Source: Pseudomonadota bacterium (GTDB lineage Bacteria > Desulfobacterota > Desulfobulbia > Desulfobulbales > Desulfocapsaceae). Taken from it: a DNA stretch of 64,000 nucleotides. Made by a program: the position numbers and the translations under genes. How positions within the stretch are numbered: the first letter of the stretch is position 1; each line of letters opens with the position of its first letter. A model generated the notes under the pieces. The model worked only from the letters and a program-made list of their open reading frames with translations, was not told where the DNA came from and ran no database searches. The stretch covers positions 1 through 64,000 of the forward strand of contig JAHJNL010000028.1 of assembly GCA_018820855.1 (NCBI GenBank), given 5' to 3'. Positions 2,829-56,896 of this stretch are shown here, piece after piece.

Positions 2829-3059
2829 TTAATTACGCTTGCTCCCTTTGTAGGTGAATGTCTTGACAATCATCTTGTAAAAGCTGCCTTTGTCTATTCC
2901 GATCTTTTTCCCACAGGGACAATAGATTTTGTTCCCCTGTGTCTGAAAATTGTACATCTTGCTGATTCGCTCCTTGTGACAGCGGAGAACTTCGCCCTGC
3001 CCAATTTTGTCATAGCGCCAGAGTTTCTTTTTGCATGCTGCGCAGTGGATAATGAGCAT
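2829..3059 (-). CDS. Small cysteine-rich (zinc-ribbon-like) protein, unknown function
   Basis: 76 residues, basic, with an N-terminal CAAC pair, a lone LRC cysteine near residue 27 and a CPCGKK motif near 47-52. Four or more cysteines in pairs suggest a structural zinc site. I do not recognise a named family. It sits 35 bases downstream of the 102-residue gene and upstream of the transpeptidase on the same strand. No strong ribosome site is visible before ATG 3059. Confidence 0.55.
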   Translation of the reverse strand: MLIIHCAACKKKLWRYDKIGQGEVLRCHKERISKMYNFQTQGNKIYCPCGKKIGIDKGSFYKMIVKTFTYKGSKRN

Positions 3060-6795: not shown

Positions 6796-8181
6796 ATGCA
6801 TTCAATACTCGTAGTTGATGACGAGCCCAATTACCTTGTAGTCCTTTCGGAACTGCTCCGGGATGAAGGTTTTGAGGTCTTCACCGCTCCTGATGGAAAA
6901 GAGGGAATGGTCGCGATACAGGAGGTGGATCTTGATCTGGTGATCACGGATATGCAGATGCCGGGTATGGATGGATTGCAGTTTCTCCAGAAAATCAAAG
7001 AGGTTAACAATGATCTGCCAGTGATTATGATCACAGCCTTTGCCGAAGTGGATAAAGCTGTGGCGGCCATGCAGGCCGGGGCTTACAACTATCTCGCTAA
7101 ACCTTTTTCTAATGATGAACTGCTTGTTAATATCAATAAAGCAGTGCACCATTATTCCCTGATCAGGGAGAACAGCAGGCTGCGCAAGGAAATGATGACT
7201 CGTACCGGCTTTAGCGGTATGGTCGGTAAAAACAAGAAGATGCGGCATGTGTATGAGCTGATTGAAAAGGTGGCTCCAACGCCCTCAACGGTGTTGATTG
7301 CCGGGGAGAGCGGAACGGGAAAAGAACTGGTGGCCAAGGCCATTCATTTTAACAGTCCTCGGGCGGATAAACCCTTTATCACCGTGAATTGTGCAGCCCT
7401 TGCTGATAATCTCCTTGAAAGTGAACTCTTCGGCCATGAAAAAGGTGCCTTTACCGGGGCTGTATCTATGCGTAAGGGCCGCTTTGAGTCGGCAGACGGT
7501 GGTACTCTGTTCCTGGATGAGGTTGGTGAAATCCCTATGGCCCTTCAGGCAAAACTGCTTCGGGCAATCCAGGAAAAGAGTTTCGAACGGGTGGGCGGTA
7601 ACAAGAACTTGAGTGTTGATGTGCGTATTGTCAGTGCCACTAACAGAGATTTGAAAGAGGAAGTGAGCCAGGGGAAATTTCGTGAAGATCTCTATTATCG
7701 ACTGAATGTGATCCATCTTGGCTTGCCAGCCTTGCGGGAGCGTCTGGATGATATTCCTCTGCTTGTCGAGTATTTTGTTACAAGTTTTGCTGACCGTCTT
7801 AATAAGCCTGACCTGACAATCAGTAGTGAGGCCATGCGACTTCTGGTCACGCTGCCCTGGGAGGGAAATGTCAGGGAACTTGAAAATACCATTGAACGGG
7901 CAGCTATCCTCTGTGATGATAATGTCATAGAGGCGGACGATGTCCAGCCTGAGTCACTTGGCAATAACGGGCAGGACTGGAGCAGGGACCTTGATTGGGA
8001 GCAGCTTATCCCCAAGGATGCAGGGCTCAATGATGTCCTCTACGCCATTGAGGACAGGATGCTGCGTCAGGCCCTGGAAGAGACGGGGTATGTGCAGGCC
8101 CGGGCTGCGGAACAGTTGGGGATCACGAAGAGTCTGCTTCAGTATAAGATGAAAAAGTACGGGATAAAGAAGAAGAAATAG
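6796..8181 (+). CDS. NtrC-family sigma-54 response regulator
   Basis: 461 residues in three parts. Receiver domain 1-120 has acidic pocket DDE at 8-10, phospho-acceptor Asp52 in ITDMQMPG, and Lys in AKPF. The AAA+ domain, about 140-380, has Walker A GESGTGKE, the sigma-54 contact loop GAFTGA and Walker B FLDEVGE. The C-terminal Fis-like helix-turn-helix includes [20 protein letters not shown]. Proteins of this form bind enhancer sites and drive sigma-54 polymerase after phosphorylation. No histidine kinase lies next to it, so its partner is elsewhere. ATG 6796 starts directly at the first receiver strand. Confidence 0.9.
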
Positions 8182-8202
8182 CGAGGAAATGCTATCAGCC
8201 GA

Positions 8203-9063
8203 TCAGCATCGCTGGATACCCCAGTGCAGTTTGTTTCTGAGGATGGAAAAAAAATCCCTTTCCGGGGAGACAATGAGGCGCAGGGGCTGTGTTGCCATTT
8301 CGATCTTTAGACAATTTTCTTCAGTCATGTTCCAGGCAGATTGGCCGTCGATGATAACTTGGGCCTTTTGGTTATGACCTGTTTTGAGCGTTGTTTGCAA
8401 TCGGCGGTCAGCAGGCAAAAGGATCGGTCTTGAGCTCAGCATAAAGGGACAGATGGGTGTGACCAGGATTGATGCCAGTCCTGGGTAGACCAGGGGGCCT
8501 CCGGCAGAGAGGTTGTAGGCTGTTGATCCGGTGGGAGTGGAAAAGATGAGGCCGTCTGCCTTGTACGTGGTGATGTGCTCCTGATCGGCCCTGGTTGAAA
8601 ACTCCAGCATCTGGTCAAGTGTTCCTTTGCAGATAACCACCTCGTTGAGAGCATAGCGAGACGTGCTTTGGTCTCCTTCAAGGGTCAGAGTGCCCTTGAG
8701 CATCATTCGATTTTCAATGGTGACCGCTCCGGAGATCAGTTCGTCCACTGCAGCCATGGCTTCCTGCTCAGTCCGTTCCGTAAGAAACCCAAGATTTCCC
8801 ATGTTGATCCCGAGCACCGGGATAGAATGTCGTGCAGCCTGATCTGCCACATGAAGAAGGGTTCCGTCACCTCCCAGAACGATAAGGACGTCAATGTCTG
8901 TATCCACTCTGTCCAGAGAGACAGTGATTCCCGCTTTCTCCAGTCTTGTTGAAAGGGTACAGGCCAAGGCGGCAGCTGGAGGCGCATTCTTTTTCCTGAT
9001 GATTCCTGCATGATGCAGAGGCAAACTCTCAACGGTGCGGAAAGGTTCGCTTAAGAAAGACAT
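8203..9063 (-). CDS. nadK: NAD kinase
   Basis: 286 residues. The nucleotide-binding GGDGTLLH motif is near residue 70, followed by GNLGFL, the catalytic-region NEVV and the conserved TPTGSTAYNLSAGGPLV. NadK phosphorylates NAD to NADP in the cytoplasm. ATG 9063 is one base past the proC stop (TGA 9067-9065). A TTG at 9078 would give five more residues and overlap proC. Either way the two genes are translationally coupled, linking NADP supply to an NADPH-using enzyme. It converges on the sigma-54 regulator with a 21-base gap. Confidence 0.92.
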   Translation of the reverse strand: MSFLSEPFRTVESLPLHHAGIIRKKNAPPAAALACTLSTRLEKAGITVSLDRVDTDIDVLIVLGGDGTLLHVADQAARHSIPVLGINMGNLGFLTERTEQEAMAAVDELISGAVTIENRMMLKGTLTLEGDQSTSRYALNEVVICKGTLDQMLEFSTRADQEHITTYKADGLIFSTPTGSTAYNLSAGGPLVYPGLASILVTPICPFMLSSRPILLPADRRLQTTLKTGHNQKAQVIIDGQSAWNMTEENCLKIEMATQPLRLIVSPERDFFSILRNKLHWGIQRC

Positions 9064-9064
9064 T

Positions 9065-9877
9065 TCAGCGTTTTCCAAGCTCTGTTGAGCGATTCACTGC
9101 TGCTGCAATGGCATCCATAATGATTCCCCGGAATCCGCTGCGCTCCAGGACGTGTTGTGCGGCAATGGTTGTTCCGCCCGGAGAGGTGACCATGGCTCGC
9201 AGTTCAGCAGGGTGCTTATTGCTCTCCATGAGGAGTTTTACAGAACCCAAGATAGTTTGCAGAGCCAAGGTCTCAGCAACGGGACGGGTCAGGCCTGATT
9301 CCACTCCAGCATCTATCATGGCCTCGGCAAAGGTGAAGACGTAGGCCGGACCTGAGCCACTGAGTCCGGTTACAGCATCAAGGGCCTGTTCATCAAGTAT
9401 GACCGCCTTGCCTACCTTGCTGAAAATCTCTTCGGCACGCTGCAGGTCACTTTTTTCGACATTTTTGTTGCCGCTCAGCGCTGATGCTCCCTCAAGAACC
9501 AGGGCCGGGGTATTAGGCATAACTCTGATGATTTTACAGTCGTCACGTCCCAATCCCTGTTCATAAAAAGAGATGGGGAGGCCTGCGGCTATGGAGATGA
9601 TCAGGTGCTGCGGACCTGTCATACTTTTACTGGCTGCCAGGACTCTATCCATGATCTGTGGCTTTACGGCCAGGATGATTGTGGCACATGTCTCCCAGAG
9701 AGCTGCACTCTCCTCAAAGCCCTCTACTCCGTAGGTGCTGGTAATATAGTCACGTCGTTCTGCGTTGGGTTCTGTGACGGAAATGGCCTCAGGACTATAG
9801 AGGCCGGACTTGATAATACCACGAATCAGGGCTTCACCCATCTGGCCGCCACCGATAAAACCAATTCTGTTATCCAT
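9065..9877 (-). CDS. proC: Pyrroline-5-carboxylate reductase
   Basis: 270 residues, normal length for ProC. The N-terminal Rossmann motif GFIGGGQMGEALIRG, the VMPNTP segment, TGLSGSGPAYVF and the C-terminal TSPGGTTIAA are all present. The enzyme performs the last step of proline synthesis, reducing pyrroline-5-carboxylate with NAD(P)H. It is upstream of nadK in a two-gene unit. ATG 9877 is the natural start before the first Rossmann strand. Confidence 0.95.
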   Translation of the reverse strand: MDNRIGFIGGGQMGEALIRGIIKSGLYSPEAISVTEPNAERRDYITSTYGVEGFEESAALWETCATIILAVKPQIMDRVLAASKSMTGPQHLIISIAAGLPISFYEQGLGRDDCKIIRVMPNTPALVLEGASALSGNKNVEKSDLQRAEEIFSKVGKAVILDEQALDAVTGLSGSGPAYVFTFAEAMIDAGVESGLTRPVAETLALQTILGSVKLLMESNKHPAELRAMVTSPGGTTIAAQHVLERSGFRGIIMDAIAAAVNRSTELGKR

Positions 9878-18039: not shown

Positions 18040-19223
18040 TGAACTGTGATGCAGATAAAGTGATTTATATGGACAATAATGCCACCACCCGGGTTGCTCC
18101 CGAGGTGGTGGATGCCATGCTGCCGTTTTTAACGGATTGTTACGGCAATCCATCCAGCATGTATAACTTCGGCGGCCAGGTGGGAACAGCCATAAGCCAG
18201 GCCAGGGGCAAGGTTGCGGAATTGCTCGGTGCCGAGTCTTCGGAGATTATCTTTACCAGCTGTGGCACGGAAAGCGACTCCACTGCCATTCTTTCTGCCC
18301 TGCAGGCCTTTCCCGAAAAGAGGCATATCGTTACCACCCGGGTGGAGCATCCTGCGGTCAAGAATCTTTGTGAAAATCTGGATCGGCTCACCGGACACAA
18401 GCATCGGGTGACTCGTCTGCAAGTGGAATCCGATGGAACCCTGGACATGGCGCGATATGAAGAGGCCCTGGCTGATGATACCGCCATTGTCTCTGTCATG
18501 TGGGCCAATAACGAGACAGGGGTTATTTTTCCTGTGGAAAAAATGGCGGTCATGGCTAAAGAGCGGGGAATCCTTTTTCATACTGATGCTGTTCAGGCCG
18601 TGGGCAAGATCCCCATTAACCTGGGAAAGCTCGATATCGATTTTCTTTCCCTGTCAGGTCACAAACTTCATGCCCCAAAAGGGGTGGGCGTTCTCTATGT
18701 AAAACGTGGTACTCCATATGTTCCGTTTCTTGCCGGAGGCCATCAGGAAGAGGGTCGGCGTGGCGGAACAGAAAATGTGGCTTCCATTGTGGGCTTGGGA
18801 AAGGCCTGTGAACTTGCCGGGAAAATGATGGGGGAAGAAAACAGCAGGGTCAAGGCGCTGCGTGATCGACTTGAAGAGGGTTTGCTCGCCTCTGTTCCCA
18901 AATCCATGCTCAATGGCCACAAGACAGATCGGCTTCCCAATACCAGCAATATCAGTTTCGAGTTTGTGGAAGGCGAGGCTATTTTGCTGCACATGAACAT
19001 CTATAATATCTGTGCCTCATCGGGGTCAGCGTGCACTTCCGGATCCCTTGAACCGTCCCACGTCCTGCGGGCCATGGGTGTTCCTTTTACTGCTGCCCAC
19101 GGTTCCATCCGCTTTTCCCTCAGCATCTATAATACTGAGGCCGAGGTGGATTTCGTGCTGGAGAAGATGCCTCCCATCATAGCGGAGCTTCGTGAAATGT
19201 CCCCCTTTTGGAAAGCGGAGTAA
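18039..19223 (+). CDS. nifS: Cysteine desulfurase NifS
   Basis: 394 residues, class V aminotransferase fold. PLP-binding Lys is in SLSGHKLHAPKGVG and the mobile catalytic Cys loop in ASSGSACTSGSLEPSHVL. The N-terminal YMDNNATTR motif is typical. It removes sulfur from cysteine and hands it to NifU. Because the organism also seems to make a selenoprotein, the enzyme might additionally act on selenocysteine, but nothing in the sequence shows that. It is second in the nifU-nifS-thyX unit. Confidence 0.95.
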   Translation: MNCDADKVIYMDNNATTRVAPEVVDAMLPFLTDCYGNPSSMYNFGGQVGTAISQARGKVAELLGAESSEIIFTSCGTESDSTAILSALQAFPEKRHIVTTRVEHPAVKNLCENLDRLTGHKHRVTRLQVESDGTLDMARYEEALADDTAIVSVMWANNETGVIFPVEKMAVMAKERGILFHTDAVQAVGKIPINLGKLDIDFLSLSGHKLHAPKGVGVLYVKRGTPYVPFLAGGHQEEGRRGGTENVASIVGLGKACELAGKMMGEENSRVKALRDRLEEGLLASVPKSMLNGHKTDRLPNTSNISFEFVEGEAILLHMNIYNICASSGSACTSGSLEPSHVLRAMGVPFTAAHGSIRFSLSIYNTEAEVDFVLEKMPPIIAELREMSPFWKAE

Positions 19224-38795: not shown

Positions 38796-39371
38796 TTATT
38801 CTTGTGCTTCACTGTCCTTGGCAAAAGCCGGTGTCGAACGTAGCAGAGGAGGTGACGGGTCGATGTTTCGTAATTTCGCAAGTAACAGGTCTAGAGGGAG
38901 ACCAGGAGGTACAGCCTGTCTGTTTGCCTCAAGAGTGTCTGCAGCTTTTGCTGCCATCTTGCGTGCTCCTGTTTCATTTCTCTGATCATGCAGTTTGATA
39001 TACATGCCTGCTGCGCGGATCATGGCCTGGAGGACAAGCTTTTCTGCCCCTGTTGCAGGTAACCAGGCATGTTCCAATATTTCATGTACCTCGAAAAAGA
39101 GTTTCAAATCCCAGAGTACCAGAGCCTGGTCCCAGGCACTAACTAATTTTTCATCGAGGATGATTGCCAGGGCCTGTTCATAGCGGGAGAGTCGATCATA
39201 AATATATTTTTCATGTACAGACTCGTGGGGGATTGCGAGATAGTGTCGGGCTATCTTCAGCGCCGGAGTTATGTCCATTTCCGCAAAAACCTGCAAAATG
39301 GCAGCTGAAAGTTCATTGCGGATATCCCGTGCAAGTCGTTCTTCAAAGGGATTAAATCGTGATTCAACCAT
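38796..39371 (-). CDS. DUF309-domain protein
   Basis: 191 residues, probably starting at ATG 39371. The DUF309 signature LFFEVHEILEHAWLPATGAE is present, followed by LQAMIRAAGMYIKLHDQRN. Family members are all-helical with unknown function; His and Glu in the motif suggest metal binding. The frame remains open to 39437 without a better signal. It lies 30 bases before the MTHFR gene on the same strand, so could be co-transcribed. Confidence 0.7.
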   Translation of the reverse strand: MVESRFNPFEERLARDIRNELSAAILQVFAEMDITPALKIARHYLAIPHESVHEKYIYDRLSRYEQALAIILDEKLVSAWDQALVLWDLKLFFEVHEILEHAWLPATGAEKLVLQAMIRAAGMYIKLHDQRNETGARKMAAKAADTLEANRQAVPPGLPLDLLLAKLRNIDPSPPLLRSTPAFAKDSEAQE

Positions 39372-39512
39372 AATGAGAGAAACAGGGCTGTACAGCATTA
39401 ATGAGAAATGGTTGTGGTCAGGGGGCTGGCCTGGCACATCATACTTGTTGATAACTTCCGCTTCTATTACTTGGTAATAATCGAATAGGCAGGCTAAGGG
39501 AAGTGCTTCTCC

Positions 39513-41141
39513 TCAGCCCTTGTTGCACCAGGGAGTGGATTGGAACCATTCGGTAATCAGGTTGGGCGAGAGGGGTCTGCAGACATGAAAGCCCTGGAGA
39601 AAATCGCAGCCCAACTCGGTCAGCAAGTCTTGGGTCGCCTCATCTTCCACACCTTCAGCGACGACTTGACCGCCGATATTGTGAACCATATCAATGGTCG
39701 ACTTGACGATTACCGCATTATCTTCGTTATGAACCATGTCAATGACAAATGATTTGTCGATCTTGATTTCACGAGCCGGAAATTTTTTCAGATAGGATAT
39801 TGACGAGTAGCCGGTACCGAAATCATCAATGGACAGCTTGATTCCATTGCTTTTCAGTTCTCTTACCACACTGGCCACCCTCTCCTGATCGACGATGATA
39901 CAACTCTCAGTGATTTCCAGGACAAGCAGATGGGGGACCACCTGCCATTTCTTCAGCAACTTCTTTACCTCTTTTGGGAAATCAAGGTCATGAAGGTTTT
40001 TTATCGACAGGTTGACGGCAACGGGGATTTGCAAACCGGCCTGTTCCCAGAGACTGCATTGTTCAAGGGCCTTGTCAAGGACGAGAGTGGTAAGGCTTTT
40101 GATGAGTCCGGCCTGTTCCGCCAGAGGGATAAAATCATCCGGGCCGATAATGCCTTTATCGGGGTGTTGCCAGCGTAACAGGGCTTCCACCCCGATAATC
40201 CCCTTTTTCCGGATGGAGACCTTTGGCTGATAGTCAAGAAACATCTGTTTGTGCAGCAGGGCTTCCCGCAATTCACCGACCATGACCAGACGATTGAAGG
40301 TGGTCCGGTCCTGGTCGGGGTTAAAGATTGCATAGATAACGTCGTTACGCTTGGCATCATACATGGCCATATCGGCATAAAGGATCAGGGTCTCGCTGTT
40401 TAGTCCGTGTTCCGGATACAGTGCAATGCCTATGCTGATTCCCACATTGACGTTGTGGCCTTCAAGCAGGAAAGGCTCTTCAACGGCTGCGGCTATTTTC
40501 TGGCTGATCATCACCGCCTGAGAGAGGGTGGTGGCGGGCAGGACCATGGCGAATTCATCCCCGCCGAAACGGGCAAGGGTATCGGATTCTCTGACCACCC
40601 CCTGCATGCGATGGGCCACCTCTTGTAACAGGTAGTCACCATAGAAATGTCCAAGAGAATCATTGATCTCCTTGAATCGTACCAGATCCATGAGCAGTAC
40701 CGCAAGCGGCTCCCTGCGACGTTTGGCAACTGTCAGACCATGATCCAGCCTTTCTTCGATTAAAATCCGGTTGGGGAGTTCGGTTAACTCATCATGGAGG
40801 GCACGATGCCGCTCTCTGTCGGTCAGGTGTTCGCTGCGACGGATGGAGGCCAGACTTAAACGAACCACCATGACAACAAATATTGAACCGCTTAAAAGAA
40901 TACTTGAAACGATCAAGTGCTGGGTGGTGATGAATATGCTCTTGAAAAGGATGTTGATGTAGAGAATGTAACCGAGAATGAAAAAAACGATCAGGGCAGC
41001 CAGCCATTTCCAGCCCTTGTAGAGCTGATTTCGTCTCCGACATATCTTTTGGGTGGGAATGAGGGAGAGTGCCAGAAGAAGAACTCCTATTATTACCATA
41101 CTGATTGAAACAATTTTTAATTGATAACCCACCTCTACCAT
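39513..41141 (-). CDS. Membrane GGDEF-EAL c-di-GMP signalling protein
   Basis: 542 residues from ATG 41141. Three hydrophobic stretches occupy the first 100 residues. The GGDEF domain has an intact RFGGDEF active site and an upstream RxxD inhibition site (RESD, five residues before GGDEF). The EAL domain keeps EALLRW, NLS, EITES, DDFGTG, KIDKSF, AEGVE and QGF, so both activities look possible. A 42-base duplication at the 5' end offers alternative starts at GTG 41174, ATG 41141 and ATG 41099, none with a good ribosome site. It may influence the MshEN-bearing ATPase at 22421 through c-di-GMP (speculative). Confidence 0.85.
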   Translation of the reverse strand: MVEVGYQLKIVSISMVIIGVLLLALSLIPTQKICRRRNQLYKGWKWLAALIVFFILGYILYINILFKSIFITTQHLIVSSILLSGSIFVVMVVRLSLASIRRSEHLTDRERHRALHDELTELPNRILIEERLDHGLTVAKRRREPLAVLLMDLVRFKEINDSLGHFYGDYLLQEVAHRMQGVVRESDTLARFGGDEFAMVLPATTLSQAVMISQKIAAAVEEPFLLEGHNVNVGISIGIALYPEHGLNSETLILYADMAMYDAKRNDVIYAIFNPDQDRTTFNRLVMVGELREALLHKQMFLDYQPKVSIRKKGIIGVEALLRWQHPDKGIIGPDDFIPLAEQAGLIKSLTTLVLDKALEQCSLWEQAGLQIPVAVNLSIKNLHDLDFPKEVKKLLKKWQVVPHLLVLEITESCIIVDQERVASVVRELKSNGIKLSIDDFGTGYSSISYLKKFPAREIKIDKSFVIDMVHNEDNAVIVKSTIDMVHNIGGQVVAEGVEDEATQDLLTELGCDFLQGFHVCRPLSPNLITEWFQSTPWCNKG

Positions 41142-41177
41142 ACTGGCTGAAAAGACTTTCAATTGATAAATCACCTT
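41094..41177. repeat. 42-bp imperfect tandem duplication at the 5' end of the GGDEF-EAL gene
   Basis: Units 41094-41135 and 41136-41177 both begin TACCATACTG and share TTTAATTGATAA or TTTCAATTGATAA and a final CACC. On the minus strand each encodes a 14-residue block (YQLKVFSASMVEVG and YQLKIVSISMVIIG) and each holds one ATG. The length is a multiple of three, so the reading frame is kept. Confidence 0.8.
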
Positions 41178-41858
41178 AGTTGAATGAGGGTAAGGCAGAA
41201 TTGTTTCGATTCGTGTGGCATATACATAGCAAGTTATAAGGTACTGGGGAAGGGAAAAAATAACAATTATTTAAACTTTTCTACTGGAAGAGATTGACAG
41301 GTTACATCGACGTCGATTTTCCCTTGCAGCTCAGTTCAAGCATTAAGGCTAAAGCAAAAGGGATTTTCCAGCTGTTCTAGGTGGGACATGCATGGGTTTA
41401 AAATTTCAGAATGTTCTTCAATGTGGCGTGGATCGTCAGGAAATAAACAGACAGGAGGGGCATACCATAACGTAGCAAGATATGGCGGATTGCGTGGTTC
41501 GGAATCTACACAGTTAGAGCTTTCTTTTTTGCGGCATCTTTGTGGTACGGCAAATGCTTTGATGCGGGACTGCAGCACGCCTTTGCCCGTTGTCGAGAAA
41601 GCGCAGAAATATATCTGCTAATCTTGGCCTCTGTGGTCGACATATTTTCCATGATCATGATCTTGTGACAGCTATGAGTTACCCGGCCTTGGCGAGGGGT
41701 TTATATGGCACTGTTTGATCCCTTGCCTGTGAAGCCTATAAGGGTAATGGTCAGGATCAAATTGAAATTAAACGGATAGTTACAACGGTAGTTTTTCCTT
41801 GCAGAGTTTCCGGGGCCATGGTTACACTGTGTCTATGATTAAAAGGGACGAAAGAAAT
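41178..41858. other. Gene-poor region between the GGDEF-EAL gene and APH-like kinase
   Basis: About 680 bases with two opposite frames (minus 41336-41578 and plus 41388-41621) that have no family resemblance and no ribosome site. I looked for a c-di-GMP riboswitch because of the neighbour and saw no matching core. It may be degenerate coding DNA. Confidence 0.4.
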
Positions 41859-43346: not shown

Positions 43347-45128
43347 TCATTCGCCACAGGTGATACGGATGGTTTCAGCCTTTTCGCTGATGCCTTTTTT
43401 CAAAACCTCATGGTTGTAGGCGGTAATCACATCCCGTCGTTTGAGCATCCCCACCACCCATTTGTTTTCCAGATCCTCTACCACCGGAATTTCTTCGATC
43501 CCTTTCAGGTCAAAGAGCTGCATAGCAGTGTAGAGAGAGTCGTCAGGAGTAAGCATTATCACATCCCGGCTACAGATACCGCCCACCAGATAACAGACGC
43601 GTTCTTCCTCGGAACGCTGCAGGATATTTCTTACATCCTGCATGGAAACGATGCCTGTCATTCTACCTGAGTCATCTACCACCGGGAAGTAAAATCCTTC
43701 CTTAGCCATACTGAAGATCTCAAGCAAATGGTTGATGTTGGCTCGTTCGGAGATGAAATCTACATCCTCTGTGATGGCCTTGCCCACACGGATGGATTTC
43801 ATGATGGCTGCCTCTCTCCCCTCATGAATATCAATACCCTCGCGGGTGAAATCAACGGTGTCGATGGAGTCGTGGTTGAATCTTTTGGCCACCATGGTTC
43901 CAATGATGGAGGTGAGCATGATGGGGATGATGATGAGGTAGTTACCGGTCATCTCAAAAAGGAGAAAGATAGCGGTCATAGGTGCATGGGTGGAGGCGGC
44001 GAGAAAGGCACCGATTCCCACCGTGGCATAGGCACCGGGGTCTGCAGTAAGAGTTGGAAGGACCTTATTGACAATGTGGCCAAAGCAACCGCCGATCATG
44101 GCCCCGATGAAGAGAGCAGGGGCAAAGACTCCGCCTGCCCCGCCTGAGCCGAGGGTTATAGCTGTAGCAACAATTTTAAGGAATACGAGGGCAAAGAGGA
44201 GAGGGATAGCGCCTTCACCATTGAGTACGCTTTCAATGAATTGGTATCCGTCACCCATGATCTGGGGACAGGCCATTGCCATGCAGCCGATGACCAGTGC
44301 CCCGGTAATGGGTTTGAGTTGTGGATGCAGGGGAAGTGCTTCGTATTTGTCACGGATCCAGTAAAAGATACGAATATGAAAGACTGCGATCAGTCCTATC
44401 ATGATACCCATCAAGCTGTAGAGTGGGATTTCAATAAAGGGATTGACCATGACGTAGTGAGGGATGGGAAATGCCGGAGTCGCTCCGTAATAGGCTCTGG
44501 TCACTACGGTGGATAGGGCGGAGGCAATGACAAGGGCACCAAAGGAGGTTATTTCAAAGGTACCGAGAAGTACGATTTCCGAGGCAAAAAAGATTCCGGC
44601 AATGGGGGCATTGAACATTCCGGCAATTCCGCCTGCTGCCCCTGCTGCAATATAGACCTTCATCCGACTGCCGGAGACCCGGAAAAACTGGCCCACCTGA
44701 GAGCCCATAGCTCCGCCAATGTGAGCGATAGGGCCCTCAACGCCAGCCGAGTTTCCGGTGCCGATAGTAAGTGCCGTGGAGATGATTTTCAAAGCGATTG
44801 TCCTTGCCCTGATATAACCGCCCTCCAGGTTGACTTTGCGTAAGAATTTAGTGAATCCATACCCGTTGACTTCTCCGGGAAAAAGGAGTGAGAGCGGGAT
44901 AAGCAGGATCATGCCACTGATGGGAATCAGGGGGAGAAGGAGTATATGCCAGCCGCCCAAGTCAATGCCGAGTAAGCTCTTGCCGCCCACAAAAAAGATG
45001 GTATGTACCCATTGAACTACGGTACGAAAAACGATATTGCACACACCGGCCATAAGTCCGATAAAGGTGGCGATAAGCATCATATGGGTGTTCTCGCCAG
45101 GTATGAATTTACGCAGATTCTTTATCAT
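43347..45128 (-). CDS. ClC-family chloride channel/exchanger with C-terminal CBS domains
   Basis: 593 residues. About ten membrane helices carry the ClC motifs: GTGNSAGVEGPIAHIG with the gating Glu, GSGGAGGVFAPALFIGA, and a C-terminal FLAASTHAPMTAIFLLFEMTG. The last 130 residues form two CBS modules (MTGIVSMQDVRNIL and EEIPVVEDLENKWVVGMLKR), which may bind adenine nucleotides. Function is chloride transport across the inner membrane; channel or Cl-/H+ exchange is undecided. Its ATG overlaps the dGTPase stop by four bases, a tight but functionally odd pairing. Confidence 0.9.
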   Translation of the reverse strand: MIKNLRKFIPGENTHMMLIATFIGLMAGVCNIVFRTVVQWVHTIFFVGGKSLLGIDLGGWHILLLPLIPISGMILLIPLSLLFPGEVNGYGFTKFLRKVNLEGGYIRARTIALKIISTALTIGTGNSAGVEGPIAHIGGAMGSQVGQFFRVSGSRMKVYIAAGAAGGIAGMFNAPIAGIFFASEIVLLGTFEITSFGALVIASALSTVVTRAYYGATPAFPIPHYVMVNPFIEIPLYSLMGIMIGLIAVFHIRIFYWIRDKYEALPLHPQLKPITGALVIGCMAMACPQIMGDGYQFIESVLNGEGAIPLLFALVFLKIVATAITLGSGGAGGVFAPALFIGAMIGGCFGHIVNKVLPTLTADPGAYATVGIGAFLAASTHAPMTAIFLLFEMTGNYLIIIPIMLTSIIGTMVAKRFNHDSIDTVDFTREGIDIHEGREAAIMKSIRVGKAITEDVDFISERANINHLLEIFSMAKEGFYFPVVDDSGRMTGIVSMQDVRNILQRSEEERVCYLVGGICSRDVIMLTPDDSLYTAMQLFDLKGIEEIPVVEDLENKWVVGMLKRRDVITAYNHEVLKKGISEKAETIRITCGE

Positions 45129-46793: not shown

Positions 46794-47294
46794 ATGAGTA
46801 GGGAAACAGAGTCACGACAAATTTTCTTGGTTCAGGCGCAGAGCAGGCAAGAGGCTGTGCAGCAGGTCCTGCATTTTCTGCAGACAACCGAACTTATTTC
46901 CTATGGTCTGCTCAACATTGATGAGACCGGGATAATGGCCGGTGACAGCGATGTCTTTTGGGAAAATCTCTGGCAGGGCGTGGGGAAAAACAAGGCGTTC
47001 AGTCAGCAGGTATTGGAAGAGCTGCAAAGAAACGGTGTTCGCGAGGCCTCAGACTTACTGACTGTACCCCTTGGCTATCCAAGCAAGCTTTTACATATCC
47101 TGGCCCATATGATAGATGGCTTTGTCGGTGTCGATTCGGCGTTTTATAATCTGGTTGAGGATTCACACTGGCTGGGAAAAAAAATTGAGACTGCCATCTG
47201 CGAGAACCCAAAACAGTTCTGGTTGATTCCTGTGGAAACAGGGGAGGTCGAGAGGAGCGTATTGCCGGCTGTTGCACTGGTGGGTAAAGTTTAA
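46794..47294 (+). CDS. Hypothetical protein, 166 residues
   Basis: Begins MSRETESRQIFLVQAQSRQE with AGAGGAAG seven bases upstream, so it is well signalled. The sequence is soluble, mixed alpha/beta, with a middle segment LLTVPLGYPSKLLHILAHMIDGF and a conserved-looking HWLGKKIE near residue 130. No known family recognised. It lies 430 bases upstream of the selenoprotein with a dispersed repeat between them, so co-transcription is doubtful. Confidence 0.6.
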   Translation: MSRETESRQIFLVQAQSRQEAVQQVLHFLQTTELISYGLLNIDETGIMAGDSDVFWENLWQGVGKNKAFSQQVLEELQRNGVREASDLLTVPLGYPSKLLHILAHMIDGFVGVDSAFYNLVEDSHWLGKKIETAICENPKQFWLIPVETGEVERSVLPAVALVGKV

Positions 47295-47360
47295 GATATT
47301 GATTGATTCTTGACGTACCTGTTCAGCTGAGCGAGACTGAAGGCAAGGCTATCGACTGCA

Positions 47361-47500
47361 GACTGAAGGTGAAACAATATGCCTGAAGTTATTCAAGATG
47401 GCCTTTTGTCTTTTCGAGTAACAAAACAACATGAATCTACCAGGAAGTTGTTTTTTTTCTTCATCCTTCATCTTTTTTTCTAACTTCCTGAATAGTTAGT
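47361..47500. repeat. Dispersed heptamer-rich repeat, copy C
   Basis: A left arm with GACTGAAGGTGAAAC (from 47361) and a right pyrimidine arm with TTCATCCTTCATC ending CCTGAATAGTTA near 47500. The right edge CCTGAATA matches copies A and D. A second partial purine tract (GAGACTGAAGGC) lies just before. Confidence 0.55.
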
Positions 47501-47723
47501 CATTGATAACTATGTTTTGCTGTCATGTCCGCTATTGTTGAGATGTATGTTTTTTGTTACAAACCGGTGAAAAGCCTCCTCCGAAAATAAGAGAGTTTCT
47601 GGCAGGATCCACGTTCATCCTCATGATATGGCAGAACTTACTATGAGGCTATTGACTAAGGCTACCTGCAATGGCAATAATGAAGAAAAAAACAGGTAAA
47701 AAAAAAGAAAAAGGGAAAAAATC

Positions 47724-47948
47724 ATGAAGGTTTCTATAGAATATTGTACCCGCTGAAACTATAAACCTCGTGCTTCCAGGTTGGAAGAGGAACTGAAAAA
47801 GGAATTTGATGCAGATGTTGAGTTGATAGCCTCATCAGGGGGCGTTTATGAGATCGTCCTTGATGGTGAAAAAATCTTTTCCAAAAAGGCACTCAATCGT
47901 TTTCCTGATGATGGAGAGATCAGCAAATTGATACAAGGCAGAAGGTAA
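47724..47948 (+). CDS. SelW-like (Rdx family) selenoprotein, in-frame UGA read as selenocysteine
   Basis: ATG 47724 to TAA 47946-47948 is 74 residues if TGA at 47754-47756 (codon 11) is decoded as Sec. The N-terminus reads MKVSIEYC-T-R-U-N-Y-KPRASRLEEEL, giving the CxxU redox motif and the YC/NYxPRA frame typical of SelW/Rdx proteins. The rest (VELIASSGGVYEIVLDGEKI, FSKK, FPDDGEISKLI) follows the thioredoxin-like fold with the family GxFEIxxDG region. Without readthrough only ten residues would be made, so ordinary gene callers miss it. A hairpin directly after the UGA could be the bacterial SECIS. AAGGG lies eight bases before the start. The role is a small thiol/selenol redox protein; partners unknown. 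selA/selB/selD are not in the window. Confidence 0.85.
47757..47790 (+). promoter_or_regulatory. Candidate bacterial SECIS hairpin
   Basis: Nine bases past the UGA, CCT (47766-47768) pairs with AGG (47788-47790), and CTTCC (47773-47777) pairs with GGAAG (47783-47787), leaving apical loop AGGTT. The loop resembles the AGGUCU loop of the E. coli fdhF element, with G and U in the positions contacted by SelB. The lower bulge CGTG is unpaired. Position and loop fit a SelB-binding element within the coding region. Confidence 0.6.
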
Positions 47949-47952
47949 ATTG

Positions 47953-48096
47953 TTCAGGAAAAAAACTGGAGGCGAAAGGCTAGAGGTAATTGTTTAGATA
48001 AAGAGGTTGAAGGCTGGAGGTGAAAACCAACAATTAGTTCCTCTGGAGGTTATAATTTTTCCTTTCTGTCTGCAGTCTTTTGCCCAGGCCCCTGAA
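47953..48096. repeat. Dispersed heptamer-rich repeat, copy D (most complete)
   Basis: Bounded by TTCAGG (47953-47958) and CCTGAA (48091-48096). Heptamer-like runs AAAACTGGAGGCGAAAGGC and GAGGTTGAAGGCTGGAGG lie in the left half, pyrimidine runs TTTTTCCTTTCTGTC in the right. It begins five bases after the selenoprotein stop and ends before the DtxR-family gene. Confidence 0.6.
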
Positions 48097-48124
48097 TACT
48101 TATGGATAAAATAATTATTTTAGC

Positions 48125-48640
48125 TTAATCCTCTTTGGAGGGTGGGGTGGGGAACTGGCAGGAAGAGATGCAATCGTCACAGTTACTTCTGGTTTTACCC
48201 TGTTTGTAATAGTCAGCAAATCCCTGGAGCATATCATTGCCGCCTCGGGGGCAGATTTGAAGAAAGTCAATAAAAGAGATCATACGGGCTATGACTTCTG
48301 GTGGGGCGGCGTGTTCAACCCTGCAGGCACCTTCTTCTGCTGTTTTGCTGTCAATGCCGAGGACCTCAGTGAAAAATCGCTTTAATGCATCATGCCGGAA
48401 AATCACATCTTCAGCTGTCTTTTTTCCACTGTTGGTCAGGGTGATGGGTTCGTAAGGCGCGTAATTGATGAGACCTTTTTTGGAAAGGGCTCGGAGTGCT
48501 TCGGTGACAGATGCCCTGCTGACCTTGAGGCGGAATGCAATATCCTTGCTGCGTGCAACCTGTTTTTTGACAATGATATGATAGATGGCCTCAATATAAT
48601 CTTCCAGACTGGCACTGAGGTCAATGGACTTGCTGGGCAT
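48125..48640 (-). CDS. DtxR/MntR-family metal-dependent repressor
   Basis: 171 residues. An N-terminal winged helix-turn-helix (SASLEDYIEAIYHIIVKK, then SRASVTEALRALSKKGLI) leads to the dimer/metal domain with HDALKRFFTEVLGID and a Glu/Cys/His run (EEGACRVEHAAPPEVI), which is the metal site of Fe/Mn regulators. The C-terminus adds CDDCISSC, a cysteine cluster not typical of MntR and perhaps an Fe-S or zinc site. It probably represses iron or manganese transport, and likely its own gene through the operator at 48663-48685. Confidence 0.82.
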   Translation of the reverse strand: MPSKSIDLSASLEDYIEAIYHIIVKKQVARSKDIAFRLKVSRASVTEALRALSKKGLINYAPYEPITLTNSGKKTAEDVIFRHDALKRFFTEVLGIDSKTAEEGACRVEHAAPPEVIARMISFIDFLQICPRGGNDMLQGFADYYKQGKTRSNCDDCISSCQFPTPPSKED

Positions 48641-48662
48641 GGTCGGCTCCAGGAAGAGGTGA

Positions 48663-48685
48663 CTAGAAAATAGCTATGCTTCTAG
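48663..48685 (-). promoter_or_regulatory. Candidate operator upstream of the DtxR-family gene
   Basis: CTAGAA (48663-48668) and TTCTAG (48680-48685) form a perfect inverted repeat with 11 bases between, 22 bases before the DtxR-family start and about 70 before recN. The 23-base span fits a dimeric winged-helix regulator. It does not match a known DtxR or MntR box exactly. Confidence 0.4.
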
Positions 48686-48754
48686 AATTACCCTTGTTTT
48701 AGTGTTACGTCAAGCTTGTCTAATAATAATTTGTGTATATGTGTGAAATAAGCA

Positions 48755-50443
48755 ATGCTCTGTGAACTGAAAATTTCGAATCTTGCCTTGATTGAGACCT
48801 TACATTTGGACCTCTGTGAAAATGAGAGGAACGGCTTGGTGGTGATGACAGGGGAGACTGGTGCCGGTAAATCTATCATGCTGCGTGCTATCCATCTCCT
48901 GACCGGCGGCAGAGGGTCAGCAGAATGGATACGCAATGGAGAGGCTAACTGTACTGTTGAGGCTCTTTTTGAGGTTGCTCCCGGAAATAAGCTGTTACGC
49001 ACGATCCTTGAGGAACAGGGGGTGGATTCAGAAGATGCCCTGATCATGAAACGCGTGTTGAACGGGAATGGCAGAAGTCGGATGTATATCAATGGCTCTC
49101 CGGCGACCGCCAAAATGGCTTCTGAGCTTACCATAAATCTCCTCAATGTCGCCAGTCAGCACGATCATCAGCAGCTTCTGCAGCCTCATTTCCATTTGGA
49201 CTTTATCGATACCATGGGCGGAATCTGGCCCCAGAGAAAGGAGTTCGACAAGCTTTTTCTGTATTGGCAGGAAGAGCGGAATGCTTTGGAACAATTAAAG
49301 CAACTGGAACGGGAAAAAGAGCAACGCAAAGATTTTCTCCATTATCAGCTGCAAGAAATTCGAGAGGTTGCACCTGTACCGGGTGAGGATGAGGGGCTGA
49401 CCGAAGAGCGGAAAAAGTTGAAGAGTGCTGAAGCACTGATCCAGATCAGTCGCAACTCTCATAGGCTTTTGGCAAATTCTTTGCTGGATGGTTTGACGCA
49501 GATTCGAAAAGACATGGCCCAAGCCGCTGAGCTCGATAGTGATGCCGAAGAATTGGCTGCAGAGTTCGCGAGTTTCGGCTACCAGGCAGAAGACCTCGTT
49601 ATCAGACTGCGCGATTATAGAGATTCTCTGGTTAACGATCCATACCGGCTGGAAACGGTGAATGAACGGTTGAATGAACTGCAGGGGTTGAAAAGGAAAT
49701 ATGGAAATTCCCTGCAAGATGTCATTGACTATGCGCGGGAGGCAGAGAACGAGCTGCAGCAGATAGAGAATTTAGACAAGGCTGTTGCTGATTGTGAAGC
49801 TGGCGTCTTGCAACTGGAGGAAGATCTTTGCTCTCAAGCTGCTTTGCTTTCGGAAAGGCGAAAGGAACATGCTGAAAAACTTGAGATGGCCATGGCCAGA
49901 GAGCTTGCCTCATTGGCCTTTCACCAGTCTGCTCTGGAAGTACGTTTTGGCGATCATAAAGCTGGAGCGGAATCTCTGCGACAGGGGGGATGGGATCGGG
50001 TGGAATTCTTTTTCTCGGCAAATCCAGGGGAGCCGCCGCGTCCTCTGGCAAAGGTGGCATCCGGAGGAGAGCTTTCCCGTCTCATGCTGGCCTTTAAGTG
50101 TCTGCTTGCCAAAAAAGATATGGTGGAGACCGTTATTTTTGATGAGGTGGATGCTGGTATAGGGGGTGAGGCTGCAGAGGCTGTAGCCAGAAAAATCCAG
50201 GAATTGGCTGGCCACCATCAGGTCATCTGCATTACCCATCTGCCACAGATCGCTGCCCGAGGAACAACTCATTTTCTTGTGGAAAAGGGAGTGGAAGAAG
50301 GCCGTACCCAATCCAATATTAAATTACTCGACCCTGACCAGCGCCTGGCTGAGGTGAGCAGAATGCTGGCTGGTGATTCGGTTTCCGAGCAGACAAAGGC
50401 CTGGGCCGAAGAACTCTTGGCCAAGGGAAGAAGTGTAATATGA
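48755..50443 (+). CDS. recN: DNA repair ATPase RecN
   Basis: 562 residues, usual RecN size. N-terminal ATPase half with MTGETGAGKSIMLRAI, a coiled-coil middle (about 160-370, many Glu/Lys/Leu), and C-terminal signature and Walker B halves (VASGGELSRLMLAFK, ETVIFDEVDAGIGG) and ITHLPQIAARGTTHFLVEKG. SMC-like, it acts early in double-strand break repair. The next gene overlaps by four bases. The DtxR-family gene diverges from it; no LexA box was recognised. Confidence 0.95.
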   Translation: MLCELKISNLALIETLHLDLCENERNGLVVMTGETGAGKSIMLRAIHLLTGGRGSAEWIRNGEANCTVEALFEVAPGNKLLRTILEEQGVDSEDALIMKRVLNGNGRSRMYINGSPATAKMASELTINLLNVASQHDHQQLLQPHFHLDFIDTMGGIWPQRKEFDKLFLYWQEERNALEQLKQLEREKEQRKDFLHYQLQEIREVAPVPGEDEGLTEERKKLKSAEALIQISRNSHRLLANSLLDGLTQIRKDMAQAAELDSDAEELAAEFASFGYQAEDLVIRLRDYRDSLVNDPYRLETVNERLNELQGLKRKYGNSLQDVIDYAREAENELQQIENLDKAVADCEAGVLQLEEDLCSQAALLSERRKEHAEKLEMAMARELASLAFHQSALEVRFGDHKAGAESLRQGGWDRVEFFFSANPGEPPRPLAKVASGGELSRLMLAFKCLLAKKDMVETVIFDEVDAGIGGEAAEAVARKIQELAGHHQVICITHLPQIAARGTTHFLVEKGVEEGRTQSNIKLLDPDQRLAEVSRMLAGDSVSEQTKAWAEELLAKGRSVI

Positions 50444-51483
50444 AGCAAGTAACAGCATTGGCCCTTTTTTCCGGAGGCCTGGACTCCATTCTTGCTGCCA
50501 GGCTGGTCGCATCATTAGGGGTGAGGGTGCTTGCAGTGAAGTTTGTGACTCCTTTTTTTGATTATGAATTGCTGGCAGACCCAGAAAGGTATCAACAGGA
50601 GGTCATGGAAAAATACGGTTTGGAGGTGGTGCTTTATGATCTCAGTAATAACTACCTGGATCTGCTTCACAAACCGGCCCATGGTTTTGGGAAAAATTTT
50701 AATCCCTGCATTGACTGTAAAATCTTGATGTGTTCACGTGCCAAGGAGTTGATGGCGAAATATGGTGCATCCTTCCTGATCAGCGGTGAGGTTCTCGGGC
50801 AACGGCCCATGTCTCAGCGCCGCGACACACTGCGAGTCATTGAACGTGATTCCGATAATGACGGTCTTCTGCTTCGCCCTCTTTCAGCAAAACTCATGTC
50901 TCCCACCAAGCCTGAAACAGAAGGCTGGATAGATCGTGAGAAACTCCTTAATTTCAATGGACGTGGCCGTTCCAGACAGATTGAACTGGCAAAACAGTAC
51001 GGCATAACAGATTTTCCAGCACCTGCCGGTGGCTGTATTCTCGCAGACCCCATTCTCAGCCCCAGAATTGCCCGAATTTACAGGGGGGACTTTGTTATCA
51101 AGGCTGAGGACATTACTGTCACAGATGTCCGTCTCCTTCTGGTAGGGAGACAGTTCCTTTTACCTGATGGTTTCTGGTTGATTCTGGGACGTAATGAGAA
51201 GGAGAACAGGAAGATCGAAGCTCTGGCAGGGGACAATGATATCCTCCTGTATATGCCTGATTGGCCTGGGCCTACTGCCCTTCTCCGTGGCTCGAAACAG
51301 CAGCCTTCTGATTTTGTTGTTATTGAGGAAACCTTGTTGAAGTGTGCGGGGCTTGTTGTTCGATACGCGAAAAATATCAAAGGGAACGACCCTGGTGAGG
51401 TTGTGATAGATGGACAGGGGGGGAGGCGGGAAATCACTTCTCAACCTCTGGATGACAAAATATTTCGAGAGTGGATGTTGTAG
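50440..51483 (+). CDS. PP-loop (ThiI/MnmA-like) protein fused to an NFACT-R/DUF814 domain
   Basis: 347 residues. PP-loop ATP pyrophosphatase motif LFSGGLDSILAARL at the start, then CIDCKILMCSRAKELM and FPAPAGGCILADPILSPRI, cysteine positions used in thiouridylases. The C-terminal part, from VGRQFLLPDGFWLILGRNEK, resembles the NFACT-R (DUF814) RNA-interaction domain. tRNA thiolation, the usual role of PP-loop proteins with such cysteines, is the likely function but the modified position is unknown. ATG 50440 overlaps the recN stop, so it is translated with it. Confidence 0.75.
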   Translation: MKQVTALALFSGGLDSILAARLVASLGVRVLAVKFVTPFFDYELLADPERYQQEVMEKYGLEVVLYDLSNNYLDLLHKPAHGFGKNFNPCIDCKILMCSRAKELMAKYGASFLISGEVLGQRPMSQRRDTLRVIERDSDNDGLLLRPLSAKLMSPTKPETEGWIDREKLLNFNGRGRSRQIELAKQYGITDFPAPAGGCILADPILSPRIARIYRGDFVIKAEDITVTDVRLLLVGRQFLLPDGFWLILGRNEKENRKIEALAGDNDILLYMPDWPGPTALLRGSKQQPSDFVVIEETLLKCAGLVVRYAKNIKGNDPGEVVIDGQGGRREITSQPLDDKIFREWML

Positions 51484-56487: not shown

Positions 56488-56826
56488 TTATTGATTGTTG
56501 AACATGATGGCTACGGCATAGTTGTAACCTTCTGCATCTTTGGTGCCATCATAACCAACGCCAATTGGCTTAGTTAAAGACATTGCCGTAAGAATTGTTG
56601 CCATCATTTGGTCGGTACCGGTTGTGTTGAGGGTTAACCAGCCATCATGATTATTTGATGGGTCTGAGGTGCATCCGGTAACTTGGATACGAACAATAGA
56701 ACCGGCAGGACCTATTTTAACGGGAGTACAGGCTGCCCAGCTGGTTGCGGCATATGAGCTTCCAGCAAACAGAGCACAAGACAGTGCTATACCAGCAAGT
56801 CCGAGCATTATTTTTTTTGTTTTCAT
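56488..56826 (-). CDS. Small secreted protein, 112 residues, unknown function
   Basis: Signal peptide MKTKKIMLGLAGIALSCALF ending in SSYAA, GGAGAG before the start. The mature 85 residues have two Cys (AACTPV and GCTSD) that could form a disulfide, an alternating beta pattern (IVRIQVTG) and the terminal YNYAVAIMFNNQ. No family recognised. It has its own promoter and a terminator at 56420, so it is monocistronic, in the middle of a glycan region. Confidence 0.65.
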   Translation of the reverse strand: MKTKKIMLGLAGIALSCALFAGSSYAATSWAACTPVKIGPAGSIVRIQVTGCTSDPSNNHDGWLTLNTTGTDQMMATILTAMSLTKPIGVGYDGTKDAEGYNYAVAIMFNNQ

Positions 56827-56896
56827 AGTATCTCTCCAAAGTGAAGTTATTGGGGGGCATTAATATTAGCTTCTGGTGAAACATCTCTATATTTCT

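Follow-up and report, generated by a model that had tools for sequence, protein, structure and literature searches.

According to our analysis, positions 47724–47948 of the window (i.e., the whole stretch of 64,000 nucleotides under study) encode, with a probability of about 97%, a SelW-like selenoprotein of bacterial type that belongs to the Rdx family and in which the UGA at codon 11 is decoded by means of the selenocysteine (Sec) machinery. On established knowledge, Sec would indeed be inserted at this codon and the protein would have a redox role. The parts of the locus are given in Table 1, including a purine-rich stretch upstream of the start codon that, judging from its letters, may serve as a ribosome-binding site.

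Table 1. Features of the SelW-like locus, with positions in the window and the basis of each assignment.
Feature	Position	Strand	Details and basis
SelW-like (Rdx family) selenoprotein gene	47724..47948	+	74 residues, TAA stop; frame, profile matches, conservation
UGA codon 11, probable selenocysteine codon (CxxU redox motif CTRU)	47754..47756	+	TGA kept in 62/64 relatives, tRNA-Sec in genome
SECIS-type hairpin CUUCCA/UGGAAG, GGU loop	47773..47787	+	pairing and third-position covariation over 80 sequences
Purine-rich stretch AAAGGGAA, putative ribosome-binding site	47710..47717	+	read from sequence

The preliminary description of this DNA had pointed out a TGA at codon 11 in a CxxU context (C-T-R-U-N-Y) with 63 codons beyond it, and the frame reads so: ATG and ten codons lead to the TGA, 63 further codons follow, then TAA, for a product MKVSIEYCTRU-NYKPRASRLEEELKKEFDADVELIASSGGVYEIVLDGEKIFSKKALNRFPDDGEISKLIQGRR with the redox pair C8-x-x-U11 (context CTRU-NY). 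Taken alone, such a read-through frame is weak evidence, because the window holds 99 comparably open frames (at least eight codons before the TGA and at least 55 after it), four of which, the SelW-like frame among them, lie mostly outside long open reading frames (ORFs). What lifts the SelW-like frame above chance is that its Rdx match spans both sides of the UGA and that the TGA is kept in nearly all relatives (see below). The other three frames outside long ORFs are located at 41184–41618, 56624–56860 and 2836–3036, and neither of the first two has a Pfam match at E-values up to 0.1. A motif rule flagged four read-through extensions of long frames (18214–18699, 38799–41174, 43728–44513 and 7957–9078); 18214–18699 has no Pfam match, while 38799–41174 was rejected as a read-through and is read as two genes, GGDEF/EAL followed by a separate DUF309 gene in the same frame.

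The assignment to the SelW/Rdx type, also proposed in the preliminary description, is borne out by profiles, sequence matches to known structures and predicted fold, all of which agree on a SelW-like continuation past the UGA. The read-through product matches Pfam Rdx (PF10262) over residues 2–71 (76.5 bits for a cut-off of 22.6; E = 1.8e-21), the NCBIfam model NF041051 (SelT/SelW/SelH; 103.4 bits, cut-off 88) and TIGR02174 over residues 3–71 (62.3 bits, cut-off 34.2). In an alignment of 33 members (the window protein and 32 of 64 relatives), all 33 scanned sequences match both NCBIfam models at E-values of 0.001 or better, and C8 is invariant, as is position 11 when U is counted as C, one member having a true Cys codon. 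The CxxU/CxxC motif following the first strand, a feature of the Rdx family, is present as C8-T-R-U11, and the gene has a single match in its own genome. The preliminary description expected a standard gene finder to call nothing here; since an NCBI model named for the SelW-like (seleno)protein family exists, annotation pipelines may know this type of gene.

The AlphaFold2 model of the 74-residue protein (pLDDT 88.2, pTM 0.70) has the order strand-helix-strand-strand-strand, then two helices, the first of them short; the product is predicted to have a thioredoxin-like fold. In Foldseek, the top 21 matches all come from six SelW-related bacterial entries (2fa8, 2obk, 2ojl, 2oka, 3dex and 2p0g), each recovered by sequence too, and the next matches are MIEN1 and mouse SelW. 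The model superimposes on 2fa8_A with a TM-score of 0.88 and an rmsd of 1.3, and on mouse SelW (2npb) with a TM-score of 0.71 (E = 1.3e-3), while the sequence matches of the product to the same two structures have E-values of 4.4e-10 and 6e-4, respectively.

In a scan of public genomes, codon 11 is TGA in 62 of 64 relatives, some of these public records being near-identical to each other. The preliminary description had suggested looking for Cys homologues at this codon, and one is present (TGC in L081). The codon is absent from the last relative, L046, a second selW-like coding copy in the same assembly as L023 that starts only after codon 13, with the UGA thus missing, and is possibly an assembly artefact. 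Within the same order, 119 of 146 genomes have a selW-like match, for 122 match rows in all, and an in-frame TGA is found in 120 of them; the other two begin past codon 11, at query residues 14 and 27. These rows come without the position of the TGA; of the 29 loci L083–L111, 28 showed it at codon 11 (the exception, L105, was missed by the search pattern). Among the 120 matches, three hold two TGA and one additionally a TAA. In a sample of the phylum, an Rdx match is found in 42 of 297 genomes, with a TGA in 39 of the 42 and none in the other three. The nearest record, L018 (Desulfocapsa sp.), shares 92% protein identity with the window protein, and the organism appears to be related to Desulfocapsa. 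Over codons 12–71, synonymous and amino-acid-changing differences relative to the window number 16 and 4 for L018, 24 and 8 for L019, 23 and 9 for L020 and 25 and 14 for L021, respectively; as they are mostly synonymous, selection at the protein level seems to act on the part past the UGA.

The Sec system that the preliminary description expected in this organism was recovered in full. Profile searches of the genome itself (106 contigs, listed completeness 100%, contamination 1.38) yielded one match over cut-off each for selA (609.5 bits), selB (367.7), selD (366.6) and tRNA-Sec (73.4), the four genes lying on four separate contigs. Among 14 control genomes, the cut-off was passed by selA in one, selB in two, selD in two and tRNA-Sec in five, the tRNA-Sec cut-off on its own being the least specific of the four tests; therefore, the tRNA-Sec result leans also on ARAGORN, which calls this tRNA with the anticodon TCA. 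The SelD gene of the genome (L014:1372-2448, minus strand) has an in-frame UGA of its own in a GUAAK context (...KASGUAAKLG...), and SelD is itself a selenoprotein candidate. As a side observation, selA is found about 320 bases from the end of its contig, and in at least ten other genomes of the order its start is no more than about 520 bases away from where the contig begins, which suggests a repeat or a gap beside selA.

Across the order, 11 of the 119 genomes with a selW-like gene have no match to the selA model TIGR00474 (G041, G049 and G108 among them). Nine of these 11 have selB and nine a tRNA-Sec over cut-off, one genome (G145) having neither. Six of the 11 were scanned with PF03841 and PF05889 (SepSecS): the former stayed below its cut-off, its single match being that of 19.4 bits in G049, and the latter had no match. 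A tblastn search of half of G041 with the window organism's own selA returned a best E-value of 1.2, but 48,000 of the 2,000,000 bases searched are N, so that absence of selA from G041 cannot be concluded. The gene following that selA gave only short matches in the same half (the best over 54 residues, 35% identity, E = 1.9e-5), and we do not regard these as its counterpart. Missing selA genes in these 11 relatives possibly reflect incomplete assemblies or stretches of N, and the finding that in some near-complete relatives the UGA gene occurs together with selB and tRNA-Sec but no selA or SepSecS match is a separate, weak lead. Conversely, selA occurs in all but four of the 27 genomes of the order without a selW-like gene, and thus does not imply the presence of the latter.

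Downstream of the UGA, the stem-loop CUUCCA-GGU-UGGAAG has a 6 bp stem and a loop that begins 22 nt after the UGA. The bacterial SECIS (bSECIS) consensus, as set out in the part of PMC13188914 available to us, asks for an apical loop of 3–9 nt with a G in its first two positions, a distance of 16–37 nt from the UGA, an upper stem of 4–16 bp and a free energy limit of −7.5 kcal/mol. The hairpin fits the loop, spacing and stem rules of that model as available, while its local energy (−6.8 kcal/mol) falls short of the limit; the 71 nt fold reaches −8.4 kcal/mol. Compared to shuffled sequences, however, the 71 nt fold is not unusually stable (z = +1.40; 189 of 200 shuffles equally or more stable). 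Among the 30 listed of 63 sequences searched, the best-energy hairpin under bSECIS-like rules has its loop start 22 nt past the UGA in 18 cases, 21 nt past it in two and elsewhere in eight, and two sequences (L023 and L031) gave none. An Rfam scan of 47000–48700 at E-values up to 10 gave nine listings, none at gathering score, which we read as chance.

The comparison of relatives is more telling. The window, 62 relatives and 28 of the loci L083–L111 make up 91 sequences with TGA, which reduce to 80 distinct 60-nt regions. In these, the six stem pairs correspond to standard pairs in 468 of 480 cells, against 166–296 after a shift of the 3′ half of the stem by 1–3 nt. At their third positions, Ala codon 17 and Glu codon 21 form a Watson-Crick pair in 73 of the 80 sequences and rank first among 171 third-position pairs; the expectation from 5000 shuffles within amino-acid classes, which leave sequence relatedness in place, is 51.4 on average and 64 at most. 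In 72 of 80 sequences, predicted folding stability exceeds the average for synonymous recodings (mean z = −0.91; z = −0.48 for the window itself), compared to 31 of 63 for a control segment further on (mean z = −0.22). Finally, the Cys form L081 has lost the outermost stem pair and kept the remaining five, and this single case thus says little on the bSECIS.

Several other explanations of the in-frame TGA have to be weighed. A Cys codon (TGC or TGT) may have turned into TGA in a pseudogene or through a sequencing error, and Cys forms are indeed known (the TGC of L081, CxxC in the 2fa8 and 3dex alignments), but this has a negligible probability in view of the TGA that 62 of 64 relatives, some of them near-identical, retain at codon 11 and that is present in frame in 120 of 122 matches of the order, of the mostly synonymous changes past the UGA with respect to the four nearest relatives compared, and of the covariation of the downstream hairpin. 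Under a reassigned code, or with a suppressor tRNA, UGA would be decoded as one of the standard amino acids, and the frame past the TGA would look just as open. Yet this reading is hardly credible in a window where UGA is the stop of 25 of 49 long ORFs, which implies that recoding is local and that UGA is not generally reassigned; the complete sel set and the sole tRNA-Sec match over cut-off, with its TCA anticodon, also argue against it. Termination competes with insertion at Sec codons generally, and the hairpin of the window is of modest stability, so the UGA might mostly terminate translation after a 10-residue peptide, Sec being inserted only at ample selenium and the site acting mainly as a selenium-dependent switch. 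We deem this quite improbable, given that the whole protein sequence is conserved and its predicted fold is confident, with no sign of regulation here.

The preferred reading thus remains a SelW-like protein carrying Sec at codon 11. Briefly, SelA would convert Ser-tRNA-Sec to Sec-tRNA-Sec with selenophosphate supplied by SelD, and SelB would deliver Sec-tRNA-Sec to the UGA by binding the hairpin downstream within the coding region. In the resulting thioredoxin-like protein of 74 residues, C8-x-x-U11 would fall where the first strand ends, ahead of the first helix, and C8 and U11 would most likely form a reversible selenenylsulfide in thiol redox chemistry. A further proposal, which we regard as unlikely, is that Sec at the Rdx site is obligatory in the order rather than a catalytic luxury and could support reactions that are out of reach for Cys. 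Behind it stand the in-frame TGA in all 120 order matches spanning codon 11 and the partly conserved neighbourhood (dGTPase, DtxR/MntR-type regulator, recN, ThiI-like gene); if true, Sec at this site might be needed, for example, for selenide or polysulfide handling in sulfur-metabolising bacteria.

The SelW-like gene is a typical member of a selenoprotein family catalogued from about 2005 onwards and already known in such bacteria, including Desulfotalea psychrophila, which we take to belong to the same order as the window organism. SelW-like selenoproteins had been listed in bacteria by 2006, in D. psychrophila, Geobacter sulfurreducens and others, with a SelW-like row that shows the figure 10, at least in the portion of PMC1794560 at hand. 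The same portion reports very few or no Cys homologues of SelW-like proteins in Sec-containing organisms, in agreement with our TGA counts in the order (120 of 122) and in the phylum (39 of 42). Likewise, in the accessible excerpts, PMC1088965 counts 48 SelW-like genes for the Sargasso Sea, where they form the most abundant family, and suggests a redox function, a table of PMC9312934 has an entry SELENOW-like (pfam10262, CxxU) and PMC12013277 credits three Desulfobulbia genomes with 22, 43 and 40 genes for known selenoproteins. None of the texts of PMC12013277, PMC13188914 and PMC8318568 contains the word SelW, and our literature search (Desulfocapsa/Desulfobulbaceae and selenoprotein) led to no paper known to us on selenoproteins of Desulfocapsa.

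Compared to bacterial SelW-like selenoproteins (SELENOW-like; PF10262, NF041051/TIGR02174), the window protein has the same CxxU, length, whole-profile match and bSECIS-type hairpin after the UGA; we see no difference of substance, only a new locus in a Desulfocapsa-like genome. The Cys-type Rdx structures 2fa8 (Agrobacterium), 2obk (Pseudomonas) and 2p0g (Vibrio) share its fold (query-normalised TM-scores of 0.81–0.90 over the listed chains), but their deposited chains have 103–105 residues instead of 74, and 2fa8 has CxxC where the window protein has CxxU; in 2obk and 2p0g, Cys presumably replaces Sec too. Mouse selenoprotein W also shares the fold and, we assume, the CxxU motif. In contrast to the hairpin found here in the coding region, its SECIS is of the eukaryotic kind, in the 3′ UTR, as far as covered by the available part of PMC13188914. 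Altogether, the locus is good evidence that this genome decodes Sec as well as a clean addition to a known selenoprotein family, and the set of relatives makes good data for bSECIS covariation within a coding region, existing knowledge being left unchanged.

Regarding the neighbourhood, the selW-like gene is preceded by a 166-residue ORF and by genes for a dGTPase-like protein and a ClC-like channel, and followed by a DtxR/MntR-type regulator on the opposite strand, recN and a ThiI-like gene, the names dGTPase, ClC and recN having been given from the sequence and not by profile. This layout is common to close relatives and offers no clear functional lead. Across 93 loci of relatives, some from the same or near-identical genomes and many too short for all the genes, tblastn found RecN in 41 (by similarity only), the regulator in 37, the ThiI-like protein in 23, the dGTPase in 20, the channel in 12 and the 166-residue ORF in three. 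The latter (46794–47294, plus strand) has no family over cut-off, its sub-threshold Pfam match being DUF4494, while the ThiI-like gene (50440–51483, plus strand), directly after recN, combines a ThiI-like PP-loop with an NFACT-R_2 domain.
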